From the NCBI RefSeq assembly GCF_004135345.1, contig NZ_CP035495.1, positions 3,472,001 to 3,536,000 of the forward strand: DNA of 64,000 nucleotides. The letters are read 5' to 3'. This document shows, piece after piece, positions 8,613 through 20,093 of this stretch (position 1 is the stretch's first letter; each line of letters starts with the position of its first letter). This stretch comes from Xylanimonas allomyrinae. GTDB taxonomy: Bacteria; Actinomycetota; Actinomycetes; Actinomycetales; Cellulomonadaceae. Under the pieces are notes generated by a model. It searched no databases. It saw only the letters and a program-made list of their open reading frames with translations, and had not been told where the DNA came from. A program made the position numbers and the translations under genes.

Positions 8613-9419
8613 GTGTCCCAGGAGCCTCTGGACCAGGAGAACGTCGACGCCGTCGAGCCCGCGGAGGGCACGGAGGCGGAGCTCGACGCGCCCGAGGACG
8701 CGACCGACGAGAACGCGACCGACGAGAACGTGATCGAGGACGCGACCGACGAGGACGCGACGGGCGAGGACGCGACGGGCGAGGACGCTCCCGCGGAGCC
8801 CGCCGACGAGGCCGACCCGGCCGAGGAGTTCAAGCGCACGCTGCGTTCCCAGATGGGTGACTGGTACGTCATCCACTCCTACGCGGGCTACGAGAACCGT
8901 GTGAAGGCCAACCTGGAGAACCGCATCCAGAGCCTGAACATGGAGGACTACATCTTCCAGATCGAGGTCCCCATGGAGGAGGTGACCGAGATCAAGAACG
9001 CGCAGAAGAAGATCGTCCGCCGCGTGCGCATCCCCGGTTACGTCCTCGTCCGCATGGACCTCACCGACGAGTCGTGGGGCGCCGTACGGCACACGCCCGG
9101 CGTCACGGGCTTCGTGGGCCACACGCACCAGCCGGTGCCGCTGACTCTCGACGAGGTCTTCTCGATGCTCGCCCCGACGATGCTCGAGGCGCCGTCCGCG
9201 GGCAAGCCCGCCGCCGGCGCGGCGAAGGCCAAGGCCGCCACCGTCGTCGTCGACTTCGAGGTCGGCGAGTCGGTCACGGTCACCGACGGCCCGTTCGACA
9301 CGCTGCCCGCCACGATCTCCGAGATCAACATCGAGGCCCAGAAGCTCAAGGTCCTCGTCTCCATCTTCGGCCGGGAGACCCCGGTCGAGCTGTCGTTCAA
9401 CCAGGTCGCCAAGATCTGA
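8613..9419 (+). CDS. nusG: Transcription termination/antitermination protein NusG
   Basis: The 268-residue protein has a highly acidic, repetitive N-terminal extension (about 1-75). The NGN domain starts at [20 protein letters not shown] (res. 82 onward) and a C-terminal KOW domain (about 212-268; [18 protein letters not shown]) ends in SFNQVAKI. NusG bridges RNA polymerase with Rho or the ribosomal S10 protein. Actinobacterial NusG commonly carries acidic extensions of this kind. The GTG at 8613 is chosen from the conserved MSQEP-type start and spacing. Confidence 0.96.
8695..8790 (+). repeat. Short acidic-coding repeats in nusG 5' region
   Basis: Degenerate 15-bp units of the type GACGCGACxGxCGAG encode EDATDEN/EDATGED pentapeptides (residues about 28-59 of NusG). 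The last copies are nearly identical. Unit length is a multiple of three, so length variation would be in frame. Confidence 0.7.
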
Positions 9420-9437
9420 CGGCACGACGGCGCCGAT

Positions 9438-9459
9438 AGCCCGCGGGAGACCGCGGGCT
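9438..9459 (+). terminator. Hairpin between nusG and rplK
   Basis: AGCCCGCGG-GAGA-CCGCGGGCT forms a perfect 9-bp stem with a tetraloop, 18 nt after the nusG stop. There is no strong U-tract, so partial termination or transcript processing are both possible. Confidence 0.6.
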
Positions 9460-9517
9460 TCGGCATGCAACCGGTTCATCGCCCACGGCGTCGGACCACG
9501 AACAGGAAGGAAGGCGC

Positions 9518-9949
9518 ATGCCTCCCAAGAAGAAGGTCGCCGGCCTCATCAAGCTCCAGATCAACGCCGGTGCGGCCACGCCCGCCCCGCCGATCGGCCC
9601 CGCGCTCGGTCAGCACGGCGTGAACATCATGGAGTTCTGCAAGGCGTACAACGCGGCCACCGAGTCGCAGCGCGGCAACGTCGTCCCCGTCGAGATCACC
9701 GTGTACGAGGACCGCTCGTTCACGTTCATCACGAAGACGCCGCCGGCCGCCGAGCTGATCAAGAAGGCCGCGGGCGTCGCCAAGGGCTCCGCCACGCCGC
9801 ACACGGTCAAGGTCGCCTCGCTCACCGCGGACCAGGTCCGCGAGATCGCGCAGACCAAGCTCGAGGACCTCAACGCGAACGACATCGAGGCTGCGATGAA
9901 GATCGTCGCGGGCACGGCGCGCTCGATGGGCATCACCACCGAGCTCTGA
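9518..9949 (+). CDS. rplK: 50S ribosomal protein L11
   Basis: This 143-residue protein is of family length. It shows the N-terminal [20 protein letters not shown] motif and the C-terminal rRNA-binding domain ending in [14 protein letters not shown]11 forms the GTPase-associated centre with 23S rRNA and L10/L12 and is the thiostrepton target region; the Pro-rich switch helix is intact. The ATG is preceded by AAGGAAGG. It lies 98 bp after nusG and 97 bp before rplA. Confidence 0.98.
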
Positions 9950-10046
9950 GCCCGTCCCGGTGGTCGCGCCCGTCGTGACCACCTCAGGTAACACCCACTG
10001 TGGCAGGGCCGTCGGGCCCGCTACGACCACTCAAGGAGAAGCCATC

Positions 10047-10763
10047 ATGGCGAAGCACAGCAAGGCCTACCGGGCCGCTGCCGAGAAGATCGACCGCGAC
10101 GCGCTCTACGCCCCGCTCGACGCGGTGCGCCTGGCCAAGGAGACGTCGACGACCAAGTACGACGCCACCGTCGAGGTCGCGTTCCGTCTCGGTGTCGACC
10201 CGCGCAAGGCGGACCAGATGGTCCGCGGCACGGTCAACCTGCCGCACGGCACGGGCAAGACCGCTCGCGTCCTGGTGTTCGCGAACGGCCCGAAGGCCGC
10301 CGAGGCCGAGGCCGCCGGTGCCGACATCGTCGGTGGCGACGAGCTCATCGAGCGCGTGGCCGCGGGCTTCACGGACTTCGACTCGGCCGTCGCGACCCCG
10401 GACCTCATGGGCAAGGTCGGTCGTCTGGGCAAGGTGCTGGGCCCGCGCGGCCTCATGCCGAACCCGAAGACCGGCACGGTCACGATGGACGTCACCAAGG
10501 CCGTGACGGAGATCAAGGGCGGCAAGATCGAGTTCCGCGTCGACAAGCACGCGAACCTCCACTTCATCATCGGCAAGGTCTCGTTCGACGAGAAGCAGCT
10601 GGTGGAGAACTACGCCGCGGCGCTCGACGAGGTCCTGCGTCTCAAGCCGTCGACGTCGAAGGGCCGCTACATCACCAAGGCGACCGTCGCGACGACGATG
10701 GGCCCGGGCATCCCGGTCGACCCGTCGCGCACGACCAAGCTCACCGAGGAGACCGCCGCCTGA
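10047..10763 (+). CDS. rplA: 50S ribosomal protein L1
   Basis: This 238-residue protein runs from [16 protein letters not shown] and contains the L1 signature region [21 protein letters not shown]1 forms the mobile stalk at the E site and, in many bacteria, represses its own operon. The ATG follows AAGGAG at 8 nt. A strong hairpin ends the unit; the next genes belong to the sigma/CHAT island instead of rplJL. Confidence 0.98.
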
Positions 10764-10777
10764 GGCGGACCACCTCT

Positions 10778-10815
10778 CGACGAAGGCCCGTGCCGTCCGG
10801 CGCGGGCCTTCGTCG
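10778..10815 (+). terminator. Terminator after rplA
   Basis: CGACGAAGGCCCG and CGGGCCTTCGTCG form a perfect 13-bp stem around a 12-nt loop, followed by TTCCC. It lies 15 nt after the rplA stop and isolates the rplKA unit from the accessory genes downstream. Confidence 0.85.
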
Positions 10816-10999
10816 TTCCCGGGGCGCCGTGTATCAGCGCGGGCCCGCACCCCTCTTGTCTCGTGAGAGCAGCCGAGCGCCGGAGGGTGAAATGCGGACG
10901 GTGACGCACCCCGCGCCCGTCGGTGAACGCGCGCGCATCCTAGGCTCGACGCGACCGGACGGGAGCCCGAGGGTTCCGGCGCGAACGCACGAGGACGCG

Positions 11000-11641
11000 A
11001 TGACCACCGACGACGCCCACCGCCAGGACGGGCGTGACGTCGCACGGGACCAGGAGACGCTCGGGGACCGTGCGGCGCGCGCGCTCCTGGAGTACCGCGA
11101 AGGGCGCTCGGCCGCGCTCAGCGCCGTGGTGCGCGAGGCGACGCCGCTGCTGTGGCACACCGTCCGCGCGCAGGGCGTCGACCGTGACACCGCCGACGAC
11201 GTCGTGCAGTCGGTGTGGGCGGCGCTGGTCCGGCACGCGGGGACCATCACGGAGCCGCGCGCCGTGCTCAAGTGGCTCCTGATCACCGCACGCAGGGCCG
11301 CCTGGGAGGCTGCGCGGCGTGCCCGGGAGGACCAGCGGCGGCGCACCGGGCTGCCGGACGACGCACCGGACGCGGTCCACCCGCTGCCCGACCCGCGGCC
11401 CGGCCCGGACCTCCACGTCCTGACCGACGAGCGCGACCGCGCGGTGTGGCGGGCGCTCGCGCTCCTGCCGCAGCGGTGCCAGGAGCTGTTGCGGCTCGTG
11501 TCGCTCGCCGACCGCCCGGACTACCGGATGATCTCGGCCGCGATCGGCATGCCGGTCGGCAGCATCGGTGCCACCCGGGGACGGTGTCTCGCGAAGCTGC
11601 GGACCGCGCTCGACGACATGGCGGAGGACCCATGGACATGA
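11000..11641 (+). CDS. ECF-like sigma-70 family RNA polymerase sigma factor
   Basis: The 213-residue product has region 2 at about 42-108 (TPLLWHTVRAQGVDRDTADD, then VVQSVWAALVRH) and region 4 at about 150-205 (LALLPQRCQELLRLVSLAD, MISAAIGMPVGSIGATRGRC). A Pro/Asp-rich linker joins them and there is no region 1.1 or 3. These are hallmarks of ECF sigma factors, which direct a specialised regulon. ATG 11000 with GAGG 5 nt upstream is preferred over longer in-frame starts. The stop overlaps the next gene, so sigma and the small partner protein are coupled. Being first in a sigma/partner/CHAT set suggests control by the partners rather than by a membrane anti-sigma factor. The target promoters are unknown. 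Confidence 0.88.
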   Translation: MTTDDAHRQDGRDVARDQETLGDRAARALLEYREGRSAALSAVVREATPLLWHTVRAQGVDRDTADDVVQSVWAALVRHAGTITEPRAVLKWLLITARRAAWEAARRAREDQRRRTGLPDDAPDAVHPLPDPRPGPDLHVLTDERDRAVWRALALLPQRCQELLRLVSLADRPDYRMISAAIGMPVGSIGATRGRCLAKLRTALDDMAEDPWT

Positions 11642-12120
11642 CACCAGCACCGGATGCGCCGTTCGACGAGCGCGACGCAGCGGTCCTTGCCGTCCTGGGC
11701 CGAGCGGTCGCCCTGCTCGACCCCGTGCCGGACGGACTGGTCGAACGCTCGCTGTTCGCGATGACCCTTGCCTCGCTCGAAGCCGAGGTGATGTCGATGC
11801 GGCACGTCGGCACTCCTGCCGGTGCCGTCCGCGGTGACGCGGCTCCCGTCGAGGCCCGGACCATCACGTTCACGCACGACTCGTTGACCGTCATGGTCGC
11901 CCTGTCGGCGTCGGGCGACGGCCAGGTGCGGATCGACGGGTGGCTGAGCCCGGCGGCGCCCCTGGTGGTCGAGCTGCGCCAGCCGTCCGGCGACCGGTCC
12001 ACGATGGCCGACGGCGACGGCAGGTTCTCGTTCGACCCGGTCGATCGCGGCCCGGCAAGCCTGCTGGTGCGCCCGGCCGACGACGCGGCGCCCGTCGTGA
12101 CTCCCGTCGTCGAGCTGTGA
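11632..12120 (+). CDS. Small protein of sigma/CHAT locus; helical N-terminus and carboxypeptidase-regulatory-like beta-sandwich
   Basis: I do not recognise a named family for this 162-residue soluble protein. An acidic amphipathic helical part (about 10-57; VLGRAVALLDPVPDGLVERS, then LFAMTLASLEAEV) precedes a beta-rich part (about 70-162). The pattern RIDGWLSPAAPLVVELRQPS, then DGRFSFDPVDRGPASLLVR, resembles carboxypeptidase-regulatory-like sandwich folds. There are no membrane segments and no zinc-binding anti-sigma motif. It overlaps the sigma gene by 10 bp (ATG 11632) or 4 bp (ATG 11638); the first has GGAGG at 4 nt. Position suggests a sigma-binding regulator, possibly a substrate of the CHAT protein. 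This is inference only. Confidence 0.75.
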   Translation: MDMTPAPDAPFDERDAAVLAVLGRAVALLDPVPDGLVERSLFAMTLASLEAEVMSMRHVGTPAGAVRGDAAPVEARTITFTHDSLTVMVALSASGDGQVRIDGWLSPAAPLVVELRQPSGDRSTMADGDGRFSFDPVDRGPASLLVRPADDAAPVVTPVVEL

Positions 12121-12268
12121 CGCCGGCACCTCGGCCCCGCTCGTCTCGCCGGCGGAGTGGGCGCCGGGCCCCTGCGCCGTAGCGCGCGGGCCGGGGGCGG
12201 CATCGCACGCCGGTGCCGAGCGGGTGAAGTCTCGCCCGCTCGCCTGCCCGCGCGCCTCGCCGCGGACG

Positions 12269-12274
12269 TACTCT
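12269..12274 (+). promoter_or_regulatory. Putative -10 element (TACTCT) before the CHAT gene
   Basis: TACTCT is followed by 6 nt and then the GTG at 12281, with no ribosome binding site. This suggests a leaderless transcript starting separately from the sigma gene and favours the 12281 start over the upstream GTG at 12224. Confidence 0.4.
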
Positions 12275-12280
12275 CCGGTG

Positions 12281-14887
12281 GTGCCCGGGGTTCTGGCGCG
12301 CGCCCGCGCGCTGTACGAGGACGCCCACCAGGCGGACGTGGCCGAGCGGTTCGACGACGCGCTGGAAGGCTTCCGCGCGCTCCTCGACCTGCTCGACGGC
12401 GCCGACCTCGGACCCGCCCTCAGCCCGGACCATCGCGCCGGCGCCGCGCTGCGAGTGCGCGCGCTGCTGGGGATCGCGCGCGCCCGCTACGAGTCGACGG
12501 GCGACCTGCGCGGCGCGATGGCGGCCGTGGACGGCGCGGAGCGGTACGCGCTCGCCGGCGGGCTGGAGCCCGAGGCCTTCGCGGTCCAGGGCGAGCGGGG
12601 TCGCCTGCTCCTGCGGTCGGGCGACGTCGAGGCCGCGCTGGCGGCGTTCGACACGGTCCTCCGCGGAGCCGACGTGCCGCCGACGCGCGACCTCGCCGTG
12701 GCGCTGCTGCATCACGGCTCGCTGCACCTCGACTACGGCGACCCGCGGAGAGCCGACGCCGACCTGCGCGCCAGCGCCGAGGTCGCCGTCCGGCTGGGGG
12801 AGCGCGACCTGGAGGCGATGGCCCGCCACCGCCTCGGTCTGCTGCGGTTCGTCCAGGGCGACCTGCCGGCCGCGCTGCGCGCCATGGGCGAGGCCGCGCG
12901 GATCGGCGGCACGCCCGAGCCTGTCGCCCTCCTCGACAAGGCTCGCGTGCTGGCGGACGCGGGACTCGTGGGCGACGCGGTCGAGGCACTCGAGCAGGCG
13001 GCAGTGATGGTCCGGGACGGGTCGTTGCTGGTGCGTGCCGAGGTCGAGCTCACCCTCGCGGCGTGCCTCATGGACCTGCGCCGGCACGACGAGGCCGTCG
13101 AGGCGGCGCGGGCGGCCGCGGCGGCGTTCGCGCGGTGCGGCAACGCGCTCTGGGCGGCGCGCGCACAGGTCGCGATGCTCGAGGCCCTGCTCGGCGCCGA
13201 CCGGTGGATGCGCTCTCGCGTGCCGCGCGCGACGCTGCGGCGTCGGGCGGAGCGCGCGCTCGCGCTCGCGGACGGCGCGGACGGCCGGGGCAGCAGCGGC
13301 GGCGTCGCAGACCGGATGGCCGTCGTCTACCCGGCTCTCCTCGCGGCCGCCGAGTGGTGCGCGCTCGCGGGCGACCTCACCGCCGCGCGCGCCTACCTCG
13401 CGCGTGTCCCGGCCGACCTGGGGACGGCTCCGCTGTCGTTGCGCCTGGGCAGACCGGCCGTCGTGGCGCGCATCGCGTTTGCGGCGGGCCACCGTTCGGC
13501 GGGCGTGCGCGCGGTCCAGCACGGCCAGCGCATGCTCGCCGCACACCGGGGGCTCGGGTCGGTCGAGGCGGCGGCGGCCAGCGGCGTCCACGCGATGCGG
13601 CTCAACCTCGTCGACACGCAGGCGGCGCTGGCCACGGGGGATCCCGCGGCGGTCTTCGACGCGCTCGAGCGCGGGCGCGCCGCGGCGGCGGGTGCCGCGC
13701 GGGTCGTGCCGCCCGACGACCCCGAGCTCGCGATGCTGCTGGAGCAGGCGCGGGCGGCGCACCAGGCGGCGCTCGCGCTCGGGCCCACGTCGACGCCGGA
13801 GGGTCTGCGGGCCAAGCGCCAGCACCTGGTCCAGGCGCGCCGACTGCAGGACCGCGCGCGCGAGCGGTCCTGGCAGGTCGAGGGCGAGCGTCGCCCCGTC
13901 CGGCCGACGACGGCACGCGAGCTGCGTGCCGCGCTGCGCGGGCTTGCCGCGCACGGCGGCGCCCCGGTGGTCGCCTCCTACGTGTCGATCGGCAGCAGGG
14001 TGCTCGCCGTGCGGCTCGACGGCGGGGGTCAGCGCCTGCTGCGGCTCGGGGAGCGTGCCGAGATCGACGAGCTGGTGCGCCGGACCCGGGCGGACCTCGC
14101 CGTCGTCGCGAACTCGCTCATCCCGCAGCGGCTGCGCGCGGCCGCCGCCGCGTCGCTGCGCCACGCGCTCGGTGCTCTCGACGCGCTGCTGGTGGTGCCG
14201 CTCGACGCCCCGGGCGACCTTCACGTGGCCGCCCGGGGCGGGCTGCTGACGCTGCCGTGGTGCGCGCTGCCCTCGCGCTCCGGCCTGCGCACCTGGGTCG
14301 GCGACCGCGTCGATCTGCGGACCGGGGGCGGGGCCGGTGCCGCGCGGCCGGGCGGCGTCGTCGTCCTCGCAGGGCCGGGAACCGACGGGGCCGTGCGCGA
14401 GGCGCGGGCCGTGGCCGCCGTCTGGCCGGGCTCGTCCCTGCACACGGGCGCGGGCGCGACGACGAGGGTCGCGCTCGACGCGCTCGCCAAGGCCCGTGTC
14501 GTGCATCTCGCCGCGCACGGCGGCCACGTGGAGGACAACGCGCTGTTCTCGTCGCTGCGCCTCGCGGACGGCCCGCTGTTCGCGCACGAGCTCGACGGCC
14601 TCGACCTCGCGGACGCCGTCGTCGTGCTGTCGGCGTGCGAGCTCGGGCTGTCGGTCTCCGACGTCGGGGGAGAGGCGCTCGGGTTCGCGAGCGTGCTGCT
14701 GCGGCACGGGGCGCGCGCCGTGGTGGCCGCGGTCGCGCCCCTGCGCGACGACCTCGCGGTGCGGGTCATGCCGCGGCTGCACGAGGGTCTGCGGGCCGGG
14801 CTGCCGCCTGGGGCTGCGCTCGCGGCGGCGACGCGCTCCGAGCGCGACCCGGTGCCGCTCGTGTGCTTCGGGCCGCTGCCCGTGTGA
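12281..14887 (+). CDS. TPR-CHAT protein (caspase-like peptidase domain)
   Basis: This 868-residue soluble protein has about 420 residues of Ala/Leu-rich helical repeats with TPR spacing (ALEGFRALLDLLDG, YESTGDLRGAMAAVDGAERY, AVEALEQAAVMVRDG). A helical linker (about 430-570) leads to a C-terminal CHAT domain (about 585-868). The catalytic dyad is intact: His746 in VVHLAAHGGH and Cys786 in VVLSACELG, 40 residues apart as expected for CHAT peptidases. CHAT proteins are caspase/separase relatives; some are CRISPR-linked or gasdermin-linked proteases. The GTG 12281 start is supported by a TACTCT box 6 nt upstream; GTG 12224 is an alternative. It lies 160 bp after the small beta-sandwich gene. The substrate is unknown. 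Confidence 0.88.
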   Translation: MPGVLARARALYEDAHQADVAERFDDALEGFRALLDLLDGADLGPALSPDHRAGAALRVRALLGIARARYESTGDLRGAMAAVDGAERYALAGGLEPEAFAVQGERGRLLLRSGDVEAALAAFDTVLRGADVPPTRDLAVALLHHGSLHLDYGDPRRADADLRASAEVAVRLGERDLEAMARHRLGLLRFVQGDLPAALRAMGEAARIGGTPEPVALLDKARVLADAGLVGDAVEALEQAAVMVRDGSLLVRAEVELTLAACLMDLRRHDEAVEAARAAAAAFARCGNALWAARAQVAMLEALLGADRWMRSRVPRATLRRRAERALALADGADGRGSSGGVADRMAVVYPALLAAAEWCALAGDLTAARAYLARVPADLGTAPLSLRLGRPAVVARIAFAAGHRSAGVRAVQHGQRMLAAHRGLGSVEAAAASGVHAMRLNLVDTQAALATGDPAAVFDALERGRAAAAGAARVVPPDDPELAMLLEQARAAHQAALALGPTSTPEGLRAKRQHLVQARRLQDRARERSWQVEGERRPVRPTTARELRAALRGLAAHGGAPVVASYVSIGSRVLAVRLDGGGQRLLRLGERAEIDELVRRTRADLAVVANSLIPQRLRAAAAASLRHALGALDALLVVPLDAPGDLHVAARGGLLTLPWCALPSRSGLRTWVGDRVDLRTGGGAGAARPGGVVVLAGPGTDGAVREARAVAAVWPGSSLHTGAGATTRVALDALAKARVVHLAAHGGHVEDNALFSSLRLADGPLFAHELDGLDLADAVVVLSACELGLSVSDVGGEALGFASVLLRHGARAVVAAVAPLRDDLAVRVMPRLHEGLRAGLPPGAALAAATRSERDPVPLVCFGPLPV

Positions 14888-15161
14888 CGCCGGGGCCGGA
14901 GGCATGTCCCGGGGCCCGGTTTCCGTGGGACCCGTGGACTCGTGTACGCTGTGCAGGTAACCCAAGACCGCCGGTCGTCTCCGGCTGCCCTTCCGAGTTT
15001 CTCGAGGGGTGGCTGAGGACCGAAGTCCCGCCACGACGGCGGGGGCCTGCGCAGGTGACACCGTTCGTTCTTCGAGCCCCGGTGCGCCTGCGCCGGGGCT
15101 CCTTCCGTGTTCGGGCCTTCGCCATCCTGGAGCCGGTGGTACCACCACCGGAAGGATTGCC
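14888..15161 (+). promoter_or_regulatory. rplJ leader region (L10-type leader candidate)
   Basis: This 274-bp gap holds no convincing gene. A weak promoter-like pair (TTCCGT near 14920, TACGCT near 14945) is followed by a structured leader before rplJ. L10 leaders in many bacteria bind the L10-L12 complex for autoregulation; the position and the long paired segments fit this, but I cannot confirm the conserved kink-turn by eye. Confidence 0.5.
15074..15101 (+). terminator. Hairpin in rplJ leader, possible attenuator
   Basis: GAGCCCCGG and CCGGGGCTC form a perfect 9-bp stem with a 10-nt loop, followed by CTTCCGTGTTC, 61 nt before the rplJ start. Its place in the leader suggests a regulated stop or the binding stem for the L10-L12 complex. 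Confidence 0.6.
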
Positions 15162-15686
15162 ATGGCGAGGCCGGACAAGGCAGCCGCCGTCGCGGAGGTC
15201 GCGGAGAAGTTCCGCGAGTCGAACGCGGCCGTGCTGACCGAGTACCGCGGGCTCACCGTCAAGCAGCTCAAGGAGCTGCGTCGGTCGCTCGGCGGCAACG
15301 CAACCTACGCCGTGGTGAAGAACACGCTCACCCAGATCGCGGCCAGGGAGGCGGGTGTCGAGGGTCTCGACGCCGACCTCAAGGGCCCGTCCGCCATCGC
15401 GTTCGTGACCGGGGACCCGGTCGAGGCCGCGAAGGGTCTGCGTGACTTCGCCAAGGCGAACCCCGCGCTGGTCATCAAGGGCGGTGTCCTCGACGGACGC
15501 GCCCTGACCGCGGCGGAGGTCACCAAGCTCGCGGACCTCGAGTCCCGCGAGGTGCTGCTGGCCAAGGCGGCCGGTGCCATGAAGGCCAAGCTGTTCCAGG
15601 CTGCCTACATGTTCACCGCGAACACCGCCCAGGCTGCTCGCGTCATCGATGCCCTGCGTCAGAAGCAGGAGTCGGCCGCTGCCTGA
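15162..15686 (+). CDS. rplJ: 50S ribosomal protein L10
   Basis: This 174-residue protein starts [20 protein letters not shown] and contains the L10 motif [19 protein letters not shown] with TYAVVKNTL. The C-terminal helix ([20 protein letters not shown]) is where L12 dimers bind. The ATG is preceded by GGAAGGA. rplL follows 90 bp downstream. The usual rplKAJL order is interrupted upstream by the sigma/CHAT genes. Confidence 0.98.
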
Positions 15687-15776
15687 TCCGCACCGCGGAT
15701 CGCAGCGCACCCACACATCCCCCTCTGCTTCTGACGGGCCTGACGCCCACGAAGCGTGAACGAAAGGAACGCCATC

Positions 15777-16166
15777 ATGGCGAAGCTCACCACCGAGGAG
15801 CTCATCGAGCAGTTCAAGGGTCTGACCCTCATCGAGCTGTCGGAGTTCGTCAAGGCCTTCGAGGAGACCTTCGAGGTCACCGCCGCCGCCCCCGCCGCCG
15901 TCGCCGTTGCCGCCCCCGCGGGTGGCGCCGGTGAGGCTGCCGCCGAGGAGGAGAAGGACGAGTTCGACGTCATCCTCACCGCCGCCGGCGACAAGAAGAT
16001 CCAGGTCATCAAGGAGGTGCGCGCCCTGACGTCCCTCGGCCTGAAGGAGGCCAAGGACCTCGTCGACGGCGCCCCCAAGCCCGTCCTGGAGCACGTCAAC
16101 AAGGAGACGGCCGAGAAGGCCAAGGCGCAGCTCGAGGGCGCCGGCGCCACCGTCGAGCTCAAGTGA
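15777..16166 (+). CDS. rplL: 50S ribosomal protein L7/L12
   Basis: The 129-residue protein has the N-terminal dimerisation helix ([20 protein letters not shown]), an Ala-rich flexible hinge (about 35-60) and the C-terminal factor-binding domain ([35 protein letters not shown]). It recruits translational GTPases to the ribosome. The ATG follows AAAGGAA at 8 nt. A strong terminator lies just after the gene. Confidence 0.98.
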
Positions 16167-16196
16167 CGCTCGCGGCGTAGCCGCTTCATCTCCGAG

Positions 16197-16229
16197 CGAG
16201 GCCCCGTACCCCCAGGGTGCGGGGCCTCG
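16197..16229 (+). terminator. Terminator after rplL
   Basis: CGAGGCCCCG and CGGGGCCTCG make a perfect 10-bp stem around a 13-nt loop, 30 nt after the rplL stop. It separates rplJL from the rpoBC promoter. Confidence 0.85.
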
Positions 16230-16394
16230 CCCGTCCTCGCGGGGGTATACTCCTGCGCACCGCTGTTCTTGGGCGGCATATGGCGGCCACCGAGACAACG
16301 CCTCGCACCCTTCCGGTCCGCGAGATCGACCCCGTCGATCTTGCGCCGATATCGACCGGCTCGGCCTGGCGTCTACTGTCGCGCCCTCGTGCAG

Positions 16395-16423
16395 TAGACA
16401 AACGGGTCAGGGCCGACTATGCT
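16395..16423 (+). promoter_or_regulatory. Promoter for rpoBC
   Basis: TAGACA (16395-16400), a 17-bp spacer and TATGCT (16418-16423) form one of the best consensus matches in the window. It is placed after the rplL terminator and gives a leader of about 160 nt. Confidence 0.75.
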
Positions 16424-16592
16424 AACGCTTTGCGCTCGCGTGTGTCCGCCTCACCTTCCCCGACCGCCATCAGCCGCCACTCGTCACCCACGTACTCCGT
16501 GGCGACGTCGTGGGTGTCCGATGCCCGGACGGTCCTGTGCGGGGCACACGAAAGCGTACAGCGTGCCATCGAACTGCAGGGAAGGACCCCTC

Positions 16593-20093
<3,501 letters not shown>

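Follow-up and report, generated by a model that had tools for sequence, protein, structure and literature searches.

A candidate ECF54-type, protease-gated sigma factor switch with its own promoter motif in Xylanimonas allomyrinae and related actinobacteria

We analyzed a stretch of 64,000 nucleotides (nt) from Xylanimonas allomyrinae, hereafter the window (contig NZ_CP035495.1, positions 3,472,001 to 3,536,000 of the forward strand), in which the genes for an ECF-type sigma factor (10892..11641), a small soluble protein (11632..12120) and a TPR-CHAT protease (12278..14887) follow one another on the plus strand between rplA and rplJ. The open reading frames (ORFs) and their order are those described in the original prediction, which had been made from the DNA alone and proposed a protease-gated sigma circuit linked to the state of the ribosome; overall, that interpretation is partly supported by the results below. 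We searched all three proteins for matches in Pfam, NCBIfam and PADLOC. The sigma factor, read from position 11000, matched the NCBIfam sigma70-ECF model (E 2.9e-16, residues 39-204) and Pfam Sigma70_r2 (E 3e-6), bearing out its assignment as ECF-like. Its gene probably starts at ATG 10892 rather than at the previously chosen position 11000: this codon is in frame, is preceded by GGAGG, sits 35 nt past a promoter motif and opens a frame that is uninterrupted in the window and in all four aligned congeners. The small gene, encoded directly after the sigma gene, overlaps the sigma stop codon; with the alternative start at ATG 11638, the overlap is ATGA. PADLOC produced one weak match for the three proteins, BovA on the CHAT protein (E 0.0019). 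Scanning positions 9000-17000 with Rfam at gathering thresholds gave no match, and a sigma-70 consensus scan of 10700-15200 found nothing.

The small protein (162 amino acids, aa) was modeled with AlphaFold on 62 aligned sequences, yielding a mean pLDDT of 89.2. The model consists of two helices (residues 13-29 and 36-59) and a beta-sandwich (strands between residues 76 and 147), in agreement with the helical N-terminus and the sandwich described from the sequence. The two parts are joined by an interdomain linker (residues 60-74, 11809..11853), within which residues 60-67 form the sole segment of the protein with pLDDT below 50. This segment includes Arg67 (codon 11830..11832), which is invariant in all 81 aligned small proteins, its neighbors being less conserved (V66 in 66, G68 in 52 and D69 in 48 of the same 81 sequences). 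In a further 22 of 22 printed homologues, inspected by eye, the equivalent position holds an Arg preceded by V, A, I or L; two of these homologues come from regions that lack CHAT. By comparison, the linker between the sigma2 and sigma4 regions of the sigma factor (positions 144-184) has no fully invariant residue in the alignment. Because the invariant Arg lies in a disordered linker of the small protein, and the sigma2-sigma4 linker contains no such residue, the small protein would be a likelier substrate of the CHAT protease than the sigma factor, with Arg67 as the likeliest P1 residue. The model thus suggests a protein built like a cleavable, two-part holder. In database comparisons, the small protein showed similarity to Pfam CarboxypepD_reg that was under the gathering score (E 0.0066) and had no NCBIfam match up to E 1; Foldseek with the model found no PDB match at E<=0.001, and the best match of a profile of 62 small proteins against PDB had E 0.19, with none to Csx30.

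The TPR-CHAT protein, with a start at GTG 12278 or 12281 and an alternative at 12224, consists of helical repeats to about residue 556 followed by a CHAT domain (Pfam E 1.4e-22). An AlphaFold model built on 29 sequences (pLDDT 88.0, pTM 0.85) shows a confident helical-repeat arm and the CHAT domain. The catalytic pair previously numbered 746/786, counted from 12281, is indeed intact and corresponds to His747 (codon 14516..14518) and Cys787 (14636..14638) when counted from 12278. Both residues are present in all 87 CHAT sequences that span these positions, out of 89 aligned, second copies included. In the model, the dyad lies in a caspase-like fold, as expected of a CHAT protease of clan CD. 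The best Foldseek match was human separase (9hma, E 1.1e-13, query TM 0.32; 13% identity in the alignment), and the second was Csx29 (8eey chain B, E 3.8e-13, query TM 0.36). At the sequence level, the NCBIfam Csx29 model was matched with E 0.0011 and 17.9 bits, against a cut-off of 300, and a TPR-CHAT profile searched against PDB chains at E<=0.001 retrieved TPR proteins, with no Csx29 or separase among the 53 listed. Separase resembles the protein from the window in combining a helical repeat arm with a caspase-like domain, and differs in being eukaryotic; it cuts after Arg and is regulated by securin and CDK. The genome of the window encodes one CHAT protein. At L035, L037, L039 and most Promicromonospora loci (L078-L095), two CHAT genes stand in tandem, the dyad being retained in the aligned copies.

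Of 59 genomes searched, 25, the genome of the window among them, encode the small protein at E<=0.01. Of 20 regions fetched around the better matches, 19 showed the sigma factor, the small protein and CHAT together, the exception being L047; in L045, the CHAT gene runs into the contig end. A wider scan of named genomes, from which the best 80 of 191 relatives were kept (hereafter the 80 named loci), was based on a pattern that fixed residues 30-33, 36 and 39 of the small protein, so that these positions carry no independent evidence. The sigma gene directly precedes the small gene at all 80 named loci, with the small gene no more than 200 nt after the sigma match, and CHAT follows at 79; the only exception, L099, is a contig end. 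Because the small protein occurs in 25 of the 59 genomes and the gene order repeats, this recurrence is more than chance.

What the prediction had missed is a fourth gene, encoding an S8 subtilase, which is present at 68 of the 80 named loci. The S8 gene lies downstream at 57 loci and upstream of the sigma gene at 11; 12 loci, all of them titled Cellulomonas, have none on the same strand, and one of these (L103) has an S8 gene in a divergent neighboring cassette. Wherever we examined a gap between the small gene and CHAT that was long enough for a gene (14 of 14), it held an S8 subtilase-type ORF. There is no room for one at L030, L041, L042 and L044, nor in the window, where the locus has no subtilase neighbor. 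We considered five S8 matches elsewhere in the genome of the window as the missing partner and dismissed them: they are grouped at 0.34-0.35 Mb, and any similarity to the operon S8 is weak at best. As a separate observation, 30 of the 62 operon subtilases with a match longer than 400 aa (L053-L129) contain perfect short tandem peptide repeats, such as PYTQPF, PFTTH, PYTDPH and similar sequences, that vary between species.

Judged by its neighborhood, this gene set appears to be already known as ECF54-type. In the available text of a 2022 review (PMC8999054), which cites Casas-Pastor 2021 and Huang 2015, proteolytic control is said to have been proposed for ECF54 on the grounds that its genes are consistently accompanied by ones for proteins with carboxypeptidase, subtilase and CHAT domains, and the mechanism is described as mainly actinobacterial. 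The ECF sigma factor and the CHAT neighbor are both encountered in the window; as to a carboxypeptidase-type neighbor, the small protein shows the sub-threshold CarboxypepD_reg similarity and the modeled beta-sandwich, and the subtilase is missing from the window locus. The open-access literature yielded nothing on a CHAT domain with a sigma factor and TPR in Actinobacteria, nor on a CHAT domain with subtilisin, and the available text of PMC8103513 makes no mention of ECF54. In the published ECF54 proposal, the proteases would destroy the sigma factor and thereby keep it off until a signal stops them, and the small protein would be an adaptor or chaperone rather than a holder. As far as the available text of PMC8999054 shows, this proposal was derived from the same neighborhood and from the absence of a recognized anti-sigma factor. 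We consider it somewhat unlikely, given that it is the small protein, and not the sigma factor, whose disordered linker carries a single invariant residue, that the absence of S8 from 12 of the 80 loci and from the window implies that silencing of the sigma factor does not depend on this particular protease, and that the nearest characterized TPR-CHAT protein, Csx29, cuts a sigma holder, to judge from the available text of its description.

The unit occupies a conserved place in the chromosome, and the original prediction accordingly linked it to the state of the ribosome. In the 20 fetched regions, rplK, rplA or rplJ lies beside the unit in 17, and rplK and/or rplJ flank 68 of the 80 named loci. 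The other 12 comprise L118, which adjoins rplA, L055 and L112, which are too short to tell, and nine located elsewhere, with room on at least one side. The rplA-rplJ junction (9518-16166 in the window) also contains the unit in L114, L117-L120, L123 and L131, which come from metagenome-assembled genomes (MAGs) titled Actinomycetota, Frankiales, Pseudonocardiales and Jatrophihabitans; because MAGs of other titled groups share this junction, the location is old. This age and wide sharing, with rplK and/or rplJ at 68 loci, rplA at L118, and MAGs labeled Frankiales and Pseudonocardiales among them, is what speaks for a ribosome-linked switch, in which the unit would sense ribosome assembly by virtue of lying between rplKA and rplJL. 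Several features speak against it. A terminator-like hairpin (10778..10815, plus strand) closes the rplK-rplA unit (window 10776-10820 folds at -37.7 kcal/mol, z -8.6; a simple T-run terminator scan of 10700-15200 found none), the sigma operon has a promoter motif of its own, no such motif precedes rplJ in the window, and cassettes elsewhere keep the same genes. On the strength of the hairpin, the separate promoter motif and the other locations, we rejected the ribosome link, which is not supported beyond the shared position and now seems highly improbable.

The promoter motif came to light as conserved blocks in an alignment of the regions upstream of the sigma gene. GTATCA occurs within 340 nt upstream of the sigma gene at 48 of 85 loci and, at a spacing of 16 nt, is followed by C, T and C in 45, 44 and 44 of these 48. 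Both boxes are exact at 39 of the 80 named loci within 400 nt of the sigma match, and at four more before an operon that begins with S8. In the window, the motif reads GTATCA-N16-CTCT (10831..10856, plus strand), is the sole copy, and lies 15 nt past the hairpin and 35 nt before ATG 10892. The same motif recurs at many cassettes in other orders, before the sigma gene or S8 and sometimes as divergent pairs. This predicted bipartite promoter, GTATCA-N16-CTCY, is new here, and the unit seems to switch on its own promoter, use of which by its own sigma factor would make the operon autoregulatory.

We then compared the occurrence of GTATCA-N16-CTCY with that of the reversed pattern, used as a control, in 23 genomes with the unit (22 in which the small protein was matched at E<=1e-10, plus G029) and 36 without it. 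The motif co-occurs with the unit: the 23 genomes contain 67 sites versus 22 control sites, and 49 versus 22 when 18 self sites are removed (binomial p 0.0009), with no enrichment in the 36 genomes without the unit (62 versus 82). Across genomes of the class that hold the small protein (51 of 54, the other three having already been searched), there are 174 sites versus 116, self sites included. The non-self sites also tend to lie where promoters would be expected, 21 of the 49 having a same-strand gene that starts no more than 130 nt downstream and 19 being intragenic, versus 2 and 16 of the 22 control sites (Fisher p 0.004); the positions come from a crude gene caller that missed at least one true case, L202, scored as intragenic. 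The 21 promoter-like sites include the S8 gene of a cassette (L209).

One set of potential targets is in G010, a congener of the genome of the window (G000), where each of the three extra N16 sites has a gene starting 37-50 nt downstream; G010 also has two N17 sites. The first precedes, by 38 nt, a BTAD regulator gene followed by Pvc16_N and by genes that we read as sheath and spike, the sheath match being under the Pfam cut-off; at L287 (G010:C1:2111000-2125500), a contractile-injection-type cluster is thus headed by the regulator and the sigma motif. This target is noteworthy because contractile injection systems mediate cell death in Streptomyces, as described in the available text of PMC10020575, PMC10066040 and PMC12237407. 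The second site lies 50 nt before a TIR_2 gene, the product of which matches PADLOC TIR models (best SAVED_TIR, E 9e-8) and which is followed by a protein with a weak SLATT_3 match and by a SLATT_1 protein. The third lies 37 nt before a Patatin-DUF3376 gene, for which the only other relative at E<=1e-60 among 160 family genomes is in G005, a genome with neither the unit nor an N16 site. In the genome of the window, a site precedes a gene whose intact homologue in G002 encodes a borosin-type alpha-N-methyltransferase domain at the C-terminal end (dbOphM, E 8e-66). This fusion protein is about 805 aa long, the methyltransferase domain following, from about residue 546, a front part of unassigned identity; the G002 copy (L196:8022-10436) is intact, and the G000 copy (L133/L195, G000:C1 about 234.7-236.2 kb) reads with a frameshift. 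Elsewhere, G020 has a Tle1-like phospholipase gene at +71 from a site. In G048, the gene at +70 is of AAA_21/AAA_15 type, and a patatin-like gene (under the cut-off) lies some 0.9 kb beyond it on that strand. The remaining promoter-like targets are ordinary or unclear: BTAD-AAA regulator, MarR, MoxR, MFS, FAD protein, ATP synthase epsilon and secreted proteins. Judging from these sites, an effector regulon is likely in G010, plausible in the genus of the window and no more than possible elsewhere.

These targets bear on an explanation in which the order of events is reversed: the sigma factor would mainly serve to make the proteases, CHAT would be an executioner that cleaves many host proteins in a caspase-like death, and the small protein would restrain CHAT or the sigma factor. 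The promoter motif does precede the operon and, in some S8-first cassettes, the S8 gene. Furthermore, three Cellulomonas loci without S8 (L093, L101, L111) have a divergent gene with its own motif, and the copy that was scanned, from L101, is Trypsin_2/Nal1_C-like, with matches under the Pfam cut-offs. We nevertheless regard this order as distinctly unlikely, as it leaves the non-protease targets of G010 unexplained, and the invariance of the linker Arg suggests that the substrate is the small protein.

Release of a sigma factor from its holder by a protease has precedents. In the CalpL-CalpT-CalpS system of type III CRISPR, a SAVED-domain, Lon-type protease gated by cyclic oligoadenylate frees an ECF-type sigma factor from a holder; the likeness ends there, as CalpL is Lon-type and has no TPR-CHAT. 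By analogy, the closest working precedent, closer than CalpL, appears to be type III-E CRISPR, in which the TPR-CHAT protease Csx29 was demonstrated to cut Csx30, a protein that binds and inhibits CASP-sigma (PMC10028731, available text). As described there, the two systems share a TPR-CHAT protease, a separate second protein, an ECF-like sigma factor and sigma motifs in their own locus, and the CHAT model from the window matches Csx29 structures in Foldseek. They differ in that Csx30 is a protein of 565 aa cut at residues 427-429, whereas the small protein has 162 aa and a proposed cut after Arg, and in that type III-E includes Cas7-11 and a CRISPR array, with no CRISPR search made for the window. 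The unit may work like Csx29-Csx30-CASP-sigma.

Taking these lines together, the best explanation of the whole, which we hold tentatively, at a little short of an even chance, is that the unit forms a self-amplifying sigma switch of ECF54 type that is gated by a protease. The sigma factor would start its own operon from GTATCA-N16-CTCY, and the small protein would hold it inactive through the two-helix N-terminus. On encountering a trigger through its TPR arm, the CHAT protein would use its Cys787/His747 site to cut the small protein in the disordered linker, most likely after Arg67, and the helical part would let go or be degraded, freeing the sigma factor. The freed sigma factor would then raise expression of its own operon and of a few lineage-specific genes, the predicted targets being the borosin-type methyltransferase fusion gene in the genome of the window, and the contractile-injection-type cluster, the TIR-SLATT set and the patatin gene in G010. 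In most relatives, the S8 subtilase would probably finish or amplify the cut, because S8 is missing from 12 of the 80 named loci and CHAT is missing just at one contig end. The promoter motif, the candidate cut site and the possible regulon are additions to the ECF54 picture. For loci in which a mode of control had been proposed, the promoter motif, the linker Arg and the separase-like protease make that control testable with three proteins and one reporter.

A number of observations weigh against this switch. Searches with Pfam, NCBIfam, PADLOC and the profile against PDB did not relate the small protein to Csx30 or to any known anti-sigma domain, and it has just two predicted helices. The conservation of Arg67 could reflect folding or contact with the sigma factor. 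The exact motif is lacking at 37 of the 80 named loci, among them all ten of Promicromonospora; at three of the 37 (L125, L127, L131), an S8-first operon starts at the contig edge. An N17 spacing is not enriched, and we discarded it as a general variant, although the borosin-type gene of G002 has N17. In a sample from other orders (40 chosen stretches in ten genomes, drawn from the 174 counted sites and containing 41 sites), promoter-like placement was seen for 12 of the 41 sites, with no evident effector behind any of them, as judged by eye from the printed starts of up to four genes per site, without a family search; the effector regulon is weakened as a general rule by this sample. Finally, three regions (L047, L333, L334) hold the sigma factor and the small protein with the linker Arg and have no CHAT nearby, profiles finding neither CHAT nor S8 at E<=0.01 within the 10-19 kb fetched. 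These regions speak against a strict three-gene set. Because sigma factor, small protein and Arg are retained there with no CHAT nearby, these pairs weaken the idea of the cut site. They also favor a different explanation, in which the sigma factor and the small protein are the real switch, with a trigger other than CHAT, Arg67 being structural or contacting the sigma factor, and CHAT and S8 being frequent downstream products in the operon. The variable arrangement of the proteases in S8-first and divergent cassettes fits with this as well. In view of the presence of CHAT after the small gene at 79 of the 80 named loci, and of the Csx29-Csx30 precedent as far as its available description goes, such a trigger is doubtful, even more so than the reversed order.

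A bolder extension of the protease-gated switch would make it a general actinobacterial danger switch, a chromosomal and CRISPR-free counterpart of Csx29-Csx30-CASP-sigma (with no CRISPR search made), in which a separase-like TPR-CHAT protease cuts at an Arg in a sigma holder and fires a tiny regulon of self-amplification and swappable death or immunity effectors. These effectors would comprise the contractile injection system, TIR-SLATT, patatin and Tle1-like phospholipases, AAA-type nuclease genes, proteases and, in the genome of the window, the borosin-type peptide N-methyltransferase fusion. We consider this extension rather unlikely; if the effector targets hold, a protease-freed sigma circuit known from one CRISPR type would turn out to be a stand-alone actinobacterial switch for cell death or defense. 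The EACC2 systems, which have ECF sigma and TPR genes, offer a related case: in them, a caspase-like peptidase is predicted to be coupled to an ECF sigma factor in biological conflict (PMC8195603); they differ in having EACC2 and DUF1822 domains, and the available text of that source describes no beta-sandwich partner or S8.

Further copies of the motif were also noted. Sites before recR/DUF5063 in G000, G012 and G036 were set aside as probably conserved coding sequence. At five loci of genus g48 (L322-L325, L328), a second GTATCA-N16-CTCY lies 15-52 nt past the CHAT stop codon on the same strand, with no convincing ORF behind it at any of the five, and possibly precedes a small RNA. At L326 and L327 (4420-4734 and 4582-4896, respectively), a gene for a 105-aa protein follows CHAT, with its own motif at +47 and +33 and a good ribosome-binding site; the L326 protein has no Pfam match. 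Two other sites recur far from their genes, one with a gene that we read as AbiEi-like at +212 in Oerskovia-type genomes, and the other with a SigE-type gene at +121 in genus g14.

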